Positions 6,142 through 9,692 of a stretch of DNA of 33,954 nucleotides are shown one piece after another. Positions within the stretch are counted from its first letter, which is position 1. Every line of letters begins with the position of its first letter. The notes below the pieces were generated by a model. That model was not told where the DNA came from. It made no database searches and was given only the letters and a program-made list of their open reading frames with translations. The translations under genes and the position numbers were made by a program. This DNA is from Deferribacterota bacterium. GTDB lineage: Bacteria; Chrysiogenota; Deferribacteres; Deferribacterales; UBA228. The stretch is from NCBI GenBank assembly GCA_034189185.1, contig JAXHVM010000003.1, forward strand, positions 1 to 33,954, read 5' to 3'.

Positions 6142-6696
6142 CTAATCAATTAAGGTGTAATCTATAATTTTATTAATTTCAATTGTTAGTATAAGATCAG
6201 CATTTTTCTTGTTATTAAGTATGTTATAATTGTTCTTTTTAAGTTCCTTTATTATTTCTTTTTTTAGATGTTTAAAGTTTTCAGCATTGATTTTTATTGA
6301 TGGGTATATACTTTCTGTTTTATTGTTTTGTTGAGTCGTTTGAATAAAAAAAGAATAGAATTTCTTTTTTACTTTATTTTTATTAATATAGGTTAATTTT
6401 TCTTTTCTTTGTTTTTCAGTATTAGCCTTTTCTAATATTGCATTCCTATATTTATAAAGTAAACCTTTGGAATAAACATTAATTATTTTAGTATTTATTT
6501 TTTTATTATTTATATAAATTTTGCTTTTTATAAAATCTGATATATTTTTTGTAATCTCTTCATTGTCATTTTGACAAAAAATGATGTGCCTTTCAATTAT
6601 TTTATAATCATCGTCGTTATTAGCAGCAAAAATATTTAAAGTTGAAAATAAAAATAAAATTAAAATAAATGAGTTTTTTTTGAGAAATAAATACAT
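6142..6696 (-). CDS. Exported protein of unknown function
   Basis: I do not recognise this 184-residue protein. Seen: a Lys-rich start, a hydrophobic core at about 9-22 (FILILFLFSTLNIF) and AANNDD after it, consistent with a cleaved Sec signal peptide ending near residue 25. The mature part is unusually rich in Lys, Asn and Ile with one Cys. It ends with a helix (KHLKKEIIKELKK) and a strand, NADLILTIEINKI. Strand phrases of the 'ADLIL' kind occur in several periplasmic lipoprotein families, which is too weak to assign one. It starts three bases after the stop of the neighbouring exported protein, so they form an operon. The protein stops soon after a conserved-looking strand, so a C-terminal truncation is possible. 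Confidence 0.6.
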   Translation of the reverse strand: MYLFLKKNSFILILFLFSTLNIFAANNDDDYKIIERHIIFCQNDNEEITKNISDFIKSKIYINNKKINTKIINVYSKGLLYKYRNAILEKANTEKQRKEKLTYINKNKVKKKFYSFFIQTTQQNNKTESIYPSIKINAENFKHLKKEIIKELKKNNYNILNNKKNADLILTIEINKIIDYTLID

Positions 6697-6699
6697 ATA

Positions 6700-7140
6700 T
6701 TACTTTTTATTAAATAATTCTTTTGATGGATTAACTTGTATATAAATTATATCTAATAGTTTATCAATGTGAATCAATACTTTTTTTAATGTTTCATTAT
6801 TACTTTTTAATGATATAAAAGGGGCATTTTTAAATAGGTAGTATTCATTTACGCTTAATTTTTTAAATATTGTTTTAATTTTACGTTCTAACTTATCCCT
6901 TGATGGTGTGTTCTTCTTATAAATATAAGATATAGTATAACTTATTTTTTGATCTTTGTTGTTTATATATTTTTGATTGCTAATAAGGGGTATTTTTTTA
7001 TTATTAATATTTATTATTTTAATTATATTAGAGCCCGAAACCTTAGCTTTATTTGTTGAGCTATAAATAAAGTCTAATTTAATAAAAAATATAAAAAGAA
7101 TAAATATAAATAAGAAGGTTGATTTTTTATTAAATGACAT
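6700..7140 (-). CDS. Secreted or membrane-anchored small protein, possibly I9-inhibitor-like
   Basis: A 146-residue protein with a strong hydrophobic N-terminal segment (about 8-25) followed by Ser-Ser, so a Sec signal peptide or membrane anchor. The mature protein is Lys/Asn/Ile-rich. Residues about 82-137 (from KLERKIKTIF to DIIYIQVNPS) have the alternation of a helix, a strand-turn FKNAPFISLKSN, a helix TLKKVLIHIDK and a final strand. That pattern resembles the inhibitor I9/subtilisin prodomain fold, whose members typically read 'Y..FPAIAL.V....L..L...P.V..I..D'. The resemblance is by eye and moderate. No subtilase gene is present in the window. No Shine-Dalgarno is visible before the ATG at 7140. 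It is first in a two-gene unit with the exported protein downstream. Confidence 0.6.
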   Translation of the reverse strand: MSFNKKSTFLFIFILFIFFIKLDFIYSSTNKAKVSGSNIIKIININNKKIPLISNQKYINNKDQKISYTISYIYKKNTPSRDKLERKIKTIFKKLSVNEYYLFKNAPFISLKSNNETLKKVLIHIDKLLDIIYIQVNPSKELFNKK

Positions 7141-7204: not shown

Positions 7205-8125
7205 ATGTCAACAATAACAAGGAGAAGGTTTTTAGCCTTATCAATAAAAAGTATTGTTATATCCAAATTTTTCATCTCTAATGTATATCCTTTAAATAAT
7301 GGTGGCATACATAGTAATGGCATAAAATCTAATGTTGTAATGTTAGAAGGGCAGGGTTGTATTAATCATATAGATCGTGGAATAAACTCTATTGGAGGAC
7401 TAACTAAATTCATAAATAAAGGAGATACAGTAGCTATTAAACCAAATATGTCTTTTGCAAAAGGCCCTGAATTTGCAGTAAATACAAACCCTGAGGTGGT
7501 TGGCAAGGTTGTAAAATTGTTATTTGCTGCAGGGGCTGATAAAGTTTATGTTATTGATAACACCTTAGCTGATATGAGAATGGCTTATCAAATTAGTGGT
7601 ATAGCAAAAAAAGCAGTAGAATCAGGGGCTGAGGTAGTATTTCCATTAAGTAGATATTTTGAAGAAGCTCAAATAAATGGAAAATTTATTAAAAAGTGGG
7701 AGATCTTTAGATTTTTCCTAGAAGCAGATAAAATAATTAACATGCCTGTTGCCAAACACCACGGGAGTGCTCTATTAACGTCGGCTATGAAAAATTGGAT
7801 TGGTGCAATTGGTGGCCAGAGGAATAAGGTGCACCAAAAGCTAGATACATCTATTTATGAATTAGCTTCTTTTTTTAAGCCAACGCTAAATATAGTTGAT
7901 TGTACAAGGATTTTAACAAAAAATGGTCCATCCGGTGGTAGTCTAAATGATGTAAGGGTGCTAAATAAAATATTAATATCAACAGACCAGGTAGCAGTTG
8001 ATACTATAGCAGCTGATTTGTTGGGTTTTAACTGTAGCAATATAGATTATCTGAGAATTGGCCATAATAATAAACTTGGAACAATGTATAAAAAAGATAT
8101 ATCTCTCTTGAAATTAAATGCATAA
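7205..8125 (+). CDS. Tat-exported DUF362 family protein
   Basis: A 306-residue DUF362-domain protein. Seen: an N-terminal twin-arginine signal (TRRRFLALS, residues 5-13) followed by a hydrophobic stretch to about residue 30, then the DUF362 core: KGDTVAIKPNMSF, NTNPEVVGKVV, AAGADKVYVIDNT, NMPVAKHHGSALLTSAMKNW and a late DQVAVDTIAADLLGF. A clear AAGGAG ribosome-binding site six bases before the ATG supports the start. DUF362 proteins are often found beside ferredoxin-type proteins and have no settled biochemical role; Tat export suggests folding with a cofactor before transport. The 3' end overlaps the polyferredoxin gene by eight bases, so the two proteins probably work together outside the inner membrane. 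The C-terminal ferredoxin domain seen in some relatives is absent here. Confidence 0.88.
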   Translation: MSTITRRRFLALSIKSIVISKFFISNVYPLNNGGIHSNGIKSNVVMLEGQGCINHIDRGINSIGGLTKFINKGDTVAIKPNMSFAKGPEFAVNTNPEVVGKVVKLLFAAGADKVYVIDNTLADMRMAYQISGIAKKAVESGAEVVFPLSRYFEEAQINGKFIKKWEIFRFFLEADKIINMPVAKHHGSALLTSAMKNWIGAIGGQRNKVHQKLDTSIYELASFFKPTLNIVDCTRILTKNGPSGGSLNDVRVLNKILISTDQVAVDTIAADLLGFNCSNIDYLRIGHNNKLGTMYKKDISLLKLNA

Positions 8126-9692
8126 ATATAGTCTCTATGTAAATATTAGAAGACTATCACAGCTAACTTTTTTAATCCTTTTCTTTTATTTAGCTATTGA
8201 AACTACAATAAATATTGATTTATTTTACAGCTCTCCACAATTAGATAAAAATATAAAATATTTTTTAGCTTTTGATCCTTTAGTTGCACTAATAGTTATT
8301 ATAACAACAGGTACTATTTCAGCTGTATTTATCTATTCTTTTTTTCTATTTGTATTGACTATTATTTTTGGTAGGTTCTTTTGTGGTTTTATTTGCCCCT
8401 TTGGTACTCTACATCACTTTTTTTCATATATTGGCAGTAAATTTATAATAAAGCCTAAATATATTAATTATAAGTACAGTAAATGGCAAAATCTAAAATA
8501 TTATATTTTATTTTCGCTTATTATTTTGGCTATTTTTAAAATAAATTTGATTGGTATTTTTGATCCCTTAACTTTTTTACTTAGAAGTTCAGTTTCTTTT
8601 ATTATTCCATTTATTCAATCAGCTATTAATTATTTTGGCAAGTTACTGATATTGCTAGGGATGAGTGATTTTGGAAGGTATTTAGAAAGTGATATAGCTT
8701 TTGCTGTTTTTGGTAAAGAAAACATTTTTTTTGGGCAAACCTTTCTCATTGGCATAATTCTCATTACTCTGTTTATTATAGATCTTTTTGTATACAGATT
8801 TTATTGTAGATTTATTTGCCCATTAGGCGCTTTCTTAGCTATAATATCATCAAAATCCTTGTTAAATATAAAGCAAAAAGAGGGTTGCATTGCTTGTTAT
8901 AAATGTGATAGAAGTTGTTTTGCCTCAAGCAATCCATCAAGTAGTGATAATTTTAAAAAATCAGAATGTATGCTACTTGGAAATTGTCTAAAAGAATGTC
9001 CCGTTAATGTTATGGGTTTTGATTTTTTATCAACTAGGAAAAGTAGCGTTGATGTTAATAAAAGATATCTTTTATCTACCGCTTGCCTGACAATTATATC
9101 CACATCCCTTTTTAGATATTCTTTTAATAGAGAAAGGATAAATCCTAAACTTATAAGACCCCCAGGTGCACTTGCAGAGTTAGACTTTTTGGCAAGGTGC
9201 TTAAGGTGTTCAGCATGTATAAAGGTATGTCCTCAAAATTTCTTACAGCCTTCTCTAATAGAGGGGAGATTAGAGGCTTTGTGGACTCCTATTGGTAGTG
9301 GGAGATTGGGCTATTGTGAGTATAACTGTAAATTGTGCTCTGAGGTATGTCCTACAGGTGCTATAAAGCAAATCACCCTTGAAGAGAAAAAGAAGATATC
9401 AATAGGAACAGCTTTTATAGATAAAAATAGGTGTTTACCCTATGCCTTTGATACTGAATGTGCAGTTTGCGAAGAAATGTGTCCAGTTTCACCTAAGGCA
9501 ATATATTTTAAAGAGGAGCAGATTGTAACTAGGGATAATACAGAAAAGATAATAAAAAGACCTGTAGTTGACCCTGATAAGTGCACAGGTTGCGCCATAT
9601 GCGAATTTAAATGTCCTATTGTTGACAAACCAGCAATCTATATAACTTCAATTGGCGAAGATAGATCAAAATATAACCAGTTTTTGTTTTAA
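8118..9692 (+). CDS. Fused NapH/NapG-type membrane polyferredoxin
   Basis: A 524-residue membrane iron-sulfur protein that looks like NapH (1-308) joined to NapG (309-524). Seen in the NapH part: several hydrophobic spans, the two CxxxCP loop motifs (Cys89/93 and Cys230/234), and a ferredoxin region with Cys257/260/263/267 plus Cys284/290/294. Residues 317-333 form one more hydrophobic span. After it come RPPGALAELDFLARC, a NapG hallmark, and four cluster motifs: Cys361/364/367/371, Cys400/404/407/411, Cys439/448/451/455 and Cys489/492/495/499. NapG/NapH pass electrons from menaquinol to periplasmic reductases. No napA or other reductase is in the window, so the acceptor is unknown; the overlapping Tat-DUF362 gene is the obvious partner candidate. 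Family call is firm, fusion is seen, role is inferred. Confidence 0.88.
   Translation: MHKYSLYVNIRRLSQLTFLILFFYLAIETTINIDLFYSSPQLDKNIKYFLAFDPLVALIVIITTGTISAVFIYSFFLFVLTIIFGRFFCGFICPFGTLHHFFSYIGSKFIIKPKYINYKYSKWQNLKYYILFSLIILAIFKINLIGIFDPLTFLLRSSVSFIIPFIQSAINYFGKLLILLGMSDFGRYLESDIAFAVFGKENIFFGQTFLIGIILITLFIIDLFVYRFYCRFICPLGAFLAIISSKSLLNIKQKEGCIACYKCDRSCFASSNPSSSDNFKKSECMLLGNCLKECPVNVMGFDFLSTRKSSVDVNKRYLLSTACLTIISTSLFRYSFNRERINPKLIRPPGALAELDFLARCLRCSACIKVCPQNFLQPSLIEGRLEALWTPIGSGRLGYCEYNCKLCSEVCPTGAIKQITLEEKKKISIGTAFIDKNRCLPYAFDTECAVCEEMCPVSPKAIYFKEEQIVTRDNTEKIIKRPVVDPDKCTGCAICEFKCPIVDKPAIYITSIGEDRSKYNQFLF

Follow-up and report, generated by a model that had tools for sequence, protein, structure and literature searches.

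The open reading frame at positions 8118-9692 of the window (the whole stretch of 33,954 nucleotides that was analysed) encodes a further member of a known family of fused iron-sulfur membrane proteins whose last membrane helix derives from an export signal. We regard it as highly probable that this protein is a polytopic polyferredoxin (PFD) like the one that Tooke et al. described in 2017 (PMC5449189), and that it is assembled by Sec and then by Tat, the latter step using a Lys-Arg (KR) pair and helix 5. The fusion and the handover from Sec to Tat are not new, both having been published in 2017 (PMC5449189). With somewhat less assurance, we also favor the view that the KR-bearing proteins, taken as a whole set, are natural working KR-type Tat helices within multi-span proteins, in which KR and RR have switched nine times or more with Arg always kept at the second place, and which in the window's clade are accompanied by a change of the cluster ligand Cys287 to Leu or Val.

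The features under discussion are the following.

7205-8125, forward strand: DUF362 protein, 306 residues, with the N-terminal Tat-type signal TITRRRFLALSIK (Pfam PF04015, 161.4 bits).
8118-9692, forward strand: fused membrane polyferredoxin, 524 residues (open reading frame, Pfam, NCBIfam, alignment, AlphaFold2 model).
8118-9056, forward strand: NapH-like half, residues 1-313 (Fer4_5 twice in Pfam, AlphaFold2 model).
8976-8978, forward strand: codon of Leu287, at the place of the second Cys in C284-x2-C-x2-C290-x3-C294 (alignment).
9060-9065, forward strand: Lys315-Arg316, internal twin-arginine motif in its KR form (codons AAA AGA).
9060-9113, forward strand: fifth membrane helix, residues 315-332, weakly hydrophobic (AlphaFold2 model, Kyte-Doolittle).
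9114-9158, forward strand: basic stretch after helix 5, residues 333-347, with 5 Lys/Arg and 1 acidic residue (residue count).
9156-9170, forward strand: RPPGA hallmark, residues 347-351 (translation of the reading frame, alignment, BLASTP).
9150-9689, forward strand: NapG-like domain with four 4-Cys motifs (C361-371, C400-411, C439-455, C489-499), predicted to be periplasmic (Pfam, NCBIfam, BLASTP, alignment).

The window is one entire contig of a 2.14-Mb draft genome that is 96% complete. The frame at 8118-9692 runs uninterrupted from its ATG to its TAA, and the junction contains neither a stop nor a break in the frame. The segment NKRYLLSTACLTIIS begins at residue 314 and is followed by the basic stretch and then by RPPGA; RPPGALAE begins at residue 347 (nucleotides 9156-9179). 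Two Fer4_5 stretches were identified by Pfam in the first half of the protein and several Fer4-type domains after them. Among the NCBIfam models, those for NapG/MauM align with residues 320-510 and 321-507, and the best stretches for the NapH/MauN models lie at 201-308 and 201-302. The bit scores for these NapG/MauM and NapH/MauN models, set against the curated cut-offs, are 98.6/269, 89.9/178.85, 82/234, and 79.4/213.05. All are far under, and the protein is therefore related to NapG and NapH and is called neither. The BLASTP alignment with NapG from E. coli starts at IRPPGA and gives 33% identity over 167 columns; the similarity to NapH from E. coli is weaker. A fusion of the napH-napG type with a twin arginine that reads Lys-Arg had been proposed from the DNA before this analysis, and the unbroken frame, the matches to both families, the BLASTP result, the recurrence of the junction in relatives, and the codons at 9060-9065 bear this out. 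The same proposal had named a stop and start at the junction, arising from a sequencing error, as a possible objection, and the open frame and the recurring junction dispose of it.

The polyferredoxin from MLMS-1 is a NapH-NapG fusion that was named a polytopic polyferredoxin; its insertion into the membrane was reported to be independent of Tat, and reporters placed behind helix 5 were periplasmic only with Tat and RR (PMC5449189). Conversion of the twin arginines to KK abolished export, and this comparison of RR with KK was made in one homologue, expressed in E. coli (PMC5449189). In the available text of the same work, weak hydrophobicity and positive charges behind helix 5 are described as stopping Sec from inserting this helix and as promoting release by Sec (PMC5449189). 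The window protein has two of the traits that mark the family: its NapH-like half continues in frame into a NapG-like domain with four clusters, and its last helix is weakly hydrophobic with positive charges after it. By analogy with the homologue, helices 1-4 of the window protein are expected to be inserted via Sec, and helix 5 is expected to be of the Tat type.

In the assembly that we propose, the first four helices, all in the NapH-like half, would be inserted by Sec, so that the N-terminus, the CxxxCP pairs, and the small ferredoxin part remain on the cytoplasmic side. Sec would fail to hold helix 5 owing to the low hydrophobicity of this helix and the basic residues on its C-terminal side. 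Clusters would be loaded into the NapG-like domain in the cytoplasm, after which Lys315-Arg316 and helix 5 would be recognised by Tat and the folded domain carried to the periplasm, with helix 5 serving as the anchor. The mature protein would span the membrane with a series of iron-sulfur clusters and pass electrons between the quinone pool or the cytoplasm and a partner in the periplasm; the most likely partner is the Tat-exported DUF362 protein, whose gene lies immediately upstream. The use of Tat via the KR pair in the window protein is thus assigned by analogy with the homologue.

Full-length fused proteins were found in several families in a search of 59 genomes (the window's own and those of relatives). 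The same junction was found in 11 further rows from the phylum and in the best 80 of 342 relatives from named genomes of many phyla, and the fused frame is therefore not a sequencing error. These rows and the window protein make up the 92-row alignment. The set of 145 rows was obtained by adding 53 non-identical rows from two other phyla, for which 30 loci each were taken from the genomes with a match (69 in one phylum, 50 in the other); from these 60 loci, six identical ones (L140, L160, L164, L165, L174, and L179) and one cut frame (L194) were dropped. The state of the motif played no part in choosing any sample. Also left out of the counts were L013, with a broken frame, and L016, whose frame ends after the second NapG-like cluster and which has SRRKF at the motif. 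The fusion genes at L016 (1417-2958, reverse strand) and L013 (1483-2289, reverse strand) carry in-frame stops or a broken frame, which may reflect draft error or decay. Homologues of 814-846 residues, with about 290 extra C-terminal residues, occur at L180-L185 and L187-L193, in the phylum of L097 (Planctomycetota). The extra part contains a DUF6599 domain in both homologues that were scanned (L182 and L190), and a further periplasmic part may have been fused onto these proteins.

The pair before helix 5 was determined to be RR in 130 and KR in 15 of the 145 fused proteins, a set that includes the best 80 of the 342 relatives and in which L144, L170, and L171, reading KRR, are counted as RR. 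All of the junctions in this set were read, and neither RK, KK, nor loss of the motif was found among the 145. The motif columns of the 92 rows (again including the best 80 of 342) hold RR in 77, KR in 7, and something other in 8. These last eight hold RR one residue further on, giving 85 RR and 7 KR, with a register that is ambiguous where three basic residues adjoin (an Arg precedes the counted pair in 30 of the 92 rows). The column of Arg316 is invariant in alignments of 11 and 61 sequences, and none of the 145 proteins has anything but Arg at the second place, every change falling at the first. On the 145-row tree, a quick tree made with a simpler model and with the junction columns omitted, the first residue switches between Lys and Arg at least nine times, eight of these being forced by starred branches. 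On the 92-row tree, made with a mixture model, it switches at least six times; both trees include the best 80 of 342 relatives. The change can be seen within a genus, where the window protein has KR whereas L004 has RR, and in another genus, where G009 has KR whereas G002 and G016 have RR. A charge anchor alone is a poor explanation for a second place that is always Arg, as it would allow RK and KK; recognition by Tat fits.

The sequence-only reading held that the helix carries the NapG-like domain to the periplasm without Tat, which makes the KR pair a dead motif and leaves Sec alone to insert helix 5 and to export the domain. We find the phrase "without Tat" very likely wrong and the dead-motif explanation quite improbable. 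It can draw on the pair being KR and not RR, on a Lys that would serve as a positive-inside anchor too, and on the report that more than half of the Tat signals in E. coli can use Sec when given suitable passengers (PMC5449189). A dead motif does not account for a second place that is Arg in 145 of 145 proteins (including the best 80 of 342) while the first changes repeatedly. The helices of KR proteins are no more hydrophobic than those of RR proteins (7 vs 85, from the rows that include the best 80 of 342; Mann-Whitney p 0.31, with low power), which speaks, with little power, against a turn to Sec. The helix of the window protein is weak and its tail basic, the homologue requires Tat (PMC5449189), and E. 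coli NapG mutants that cannot bind clusters are not exported, which points to a folded cargo (PMC6708511).

TatC itself is encoded in the window's genome (251.5 bits), a further point against the loss of Tat function. It was also found in 58 of 62 other genomes, which comprise 12 of the phylum (including G022, with its broken fusion frame) and 50 named genomes from among the best 80 of 342 relatives. All seven KR genomes examined have TatC, the match in G108 being partial; these are the KR carriers of the first 92 rows. TatC was not found in G063, G074, G075, and G097, whose fusions (L037, L048, L049, and L071) are all RR, and incompleteness of these genomes is the likely reason. TatC was found in 11 of 14 control genomes and is thus common, so its presence is weak evidence for the use of Tat.

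The AlphaFold2 model of the window protein, made with 61 sequences, has a mean pLDDT of 83 and a pTM of 0.86. Residues 315-332 form one confident helix (pLDDT of 93 for residues 311-320 and 95 for 321-330). The helices in the NapH-like half include 2-31, 71-84, 122-139, and 208-224; the CxxxCP pairs of this half are C89/C93 and C230/C234, and the small ferredoxin part, at approximately 254-303, is predicted to be cytoplasmic. The model carries no information on membrane sides. A structural search against the PDB found no match at E <= 0.001. In the window protein, the inter-helix loops predicted to lie outside are less basic than the loops predicted to be cytoplasmic, which fits an N-terminus on the inside. 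The Kyte-Doolittle maximum of helix 5 over 17 residues is 1.24, and among the rows that include the best 80 of 342 relatives this helix is less hydrophobic than helix 1 in 79 of 90, helix 2 in 90 of 92, helix 3 in 84 of 92, and helix 4 in 87 of 92. Between helix 5 and RPPG, 10 of the 92 rows (best 80 of 342 included) have no Lys or Arg.

A helix of 18 residues with such weak hydrophobicity could also be a surface or re-entrant helix, with the NapG-like domain remaining in the cytoplasm, and the phylum has ten free NapG proteins without a signal that are possibly cytoplasmic. We think this very unlikely. A [KR]R pair and a hydrophobic stretch are found in every fused row (including the best 80 of 342) despite a variable preceding loop, the neighbouring DUF362 protein bears a Tat-type signal, and reporters at the equivalent position of the homologue were exported (PMC5449189). 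These reporters and the conservation of the pair and the helix make it most likely that, as the sequence-only reading had put it, an old signal became the helix that brings the four-cluster domain to the periplasm. An origin of the fusion in faulty assembly or in some recent, local event, to which a draft of 312 contigs might point, has next to no chance of being correct and is refuted by a junction shared with 91 other aligned rows from many phyla (including the best 80 of 342) and by a strong match (E <= 1e-60) in 14 of 50 genomes of the phylum, the window's own included and two, G022 and G033, having broken frames.

The DUF362 gene overlaps the fusion gene by 8 bases. In a sample that includes the best 80 of 342 relatives, a DUF362 gene is the immediate upstream neighbour of the fusion in 74 of the 86 loci with enough sequence and lies elsewhere in the locus in 8 more; it was not found in the other 4 (L033, L060, L065, and L103). 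An RR pair occurs within the first 90 residues of 74 of 77 DUF362 partners from this sample; the remaining three are incomplete sequences at the ends of records. The partner is therefore most likely periplasmic and adjoins the NapG-like domain, and an electron link between the two proteins may be supposed. DUF362 and the LarA family share one Pfam clan (PMC11770544), and in the literature that was searched no link between DUF362 and NapH was found. Two small open reading frames nearby (6142-6696 and 6700-7140, reverse strand) begin with hydrophobic, signal-like segments, and neither has a Pfam match that reaches the cut-off.

The family is described with three [4Fe-4S] sites in the cytoplasm and four in the periplasm, seven in total. 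In the window protein, 27 of the 28 expected ligand Cys are present, the sides being predicted, and each of the 27 is conserved in no fewer than 91 of the 92 rows (including the best 80 of 342). The exception is the second Cys of C284-x2-C-x2-C290-x3-C294, which is Cys in 81 and Leu or Val in 11 of these 92 rows. The latter are all 10 of the window's clade (including L004-L012) and L075 from another phylum; Cys is found at this place in all 53 rows added later. Leu287 leaves one predicted cytoplasmic site with three Cys. In fumarate reductase and succinate dehydrogenase, a Cys change of this kind accompanies a [3Fe-4S] cluster. By analogy, one cytoplasmic cluster here may be [3Fe-4S], or another ligand may be used. 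As its clusters would lie on either side of the membrane, the fusion protein could carry electrons across it. The fusion, its conservation, the motif counts, TatC, and the partner gene are observed here, and we infer the working of the KR pair, the cluster content, the sides, the direction of electron flow, and the DUF362 link.

The fusion protein is unlikely to belong to a nitrate reductase in this organism, because the molybdopterin-type open reading frames fall far below the NapA cut-off and a whole-protein search of its own genome gave no second match at E <= 0.001. No NapA-grade protein was found among the five such frames scanned (best score of 167.3 against a cut-off of 904; one is a fragment, in a draft that is 96% complete). 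In G031 and G002, a NapA-like gene, a NapD-sized open reading frame, NapG, and NapH come one after another in this order; the NapD-sized frame of G031 gave no match when scanned. This gene order agrees with the napMADGH published for Deferribacteres (PMC6896113), and napMADGH has also been reported in Deferribacter (PMC13186404).

The segment around helix 5 had been said to sit where free NapG has its Tat signal and RPPGA. This is so for NapG from E. coli, which has a Tat signal, but not for the ten free NapG proteins of the window's phylum (L023-L032), all of which start 11-28 residues before RPPG without a twin arginine. A hydrophobic stretch is absent in eight of these and mild in L023; L027 is too short to score. 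These proteins may be cytoplasmic or carried by a partner. Six shorter NapG-like proteins of the phylum (L017-L022) do have a Tat signal. The free NapG of L122 (6971-7720) resembles L023-L032, and a NapA-like gene lies upstream of the free NapG in both genomes examined (L121 and L122). A comparison of separate and fused forms had been suggested as a way of dating the fusion. On the resulting tree, in which 55 of 93 fused rows were used, fused and free NapG domains do separate to the two sides of one branch; this branch has a support of 59 and the branches are long, so that a single origin of the fusion is no more than possible. The free genes are ordered napG-napH and the fusion is ordered H-G, so neighbours arranged in this way could not give rise to it just by losing the stop codon that separates them.

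The Tat motif is usually called near-invariant, and in the available text of a 2019 review TtrB is named as the only known native KR cargo (PMC6708511); here there are 15 KR pairs in 145 proteins and no RK. According to the same review, thylakoids tolerate KR and not RK, a single change of Arg to Lys merely slows export in most bacteria, and KK blocks it (PMC6708511). Both RR and KR motifs have been predicted with TatP (PMC3878961). In the literature searched on KR pairs, NapGH fusions, and Tat signals, no KR form of the PFD family was found. By analogy with these cases, KR would be a natural, tolerated variant of the Tat motif, and the proteins described here are further natural candidates beside TtrB. 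If this is correct, nature shows a Tat receptor that weighs the two arginines unequally, and the handover from Sec to Tat lets the first arginine relax. The natural KR and RR pairs, such as the window protein and L004 of the same genus, make these unequal roles testable, and the likely misreading of KR as a loss of Tat is corrected.

Among known systems, the closest is the MLMS-1 PFD (Q1NSB0), which by its published description is likewise a NapH-NapG fusion with five predicted helices, a twin-arginine-type pair just before helix 5, cluster sites in the cytoplasm and the periplasm, and a weak helix 5 with a basic C-terminal side (PMC5449189). The window protein differs from it in having KR in place of RR and Leu at the second Cys of one cytoplasmic motif (Leu or Val in 10 of 10 members of the clade). 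By description, the window protein is also like the actinobacterial Rieske proteins (Sco2149), which use Sec and Tat and in which the last helix of a multi-span protein is Tat-dependent, although those have three helices and a Rieske cluster (PMC5449189). Both halves are homologous to NapG and NapH from E. coli, where the genes are separate and ordered napG-napH; the window has one chain in the order H-G, beside DUF362, that does not reach the curated NapG or NapH cut-offs of NCBIfam. TtrB of tetrathionate reductase presumably carries iron-sulfur clusters, and we take its signal to be N-terminal, unlike the internal helix of the window protein. It is a native Tat cargo with the same KR pair (PMC6708511).
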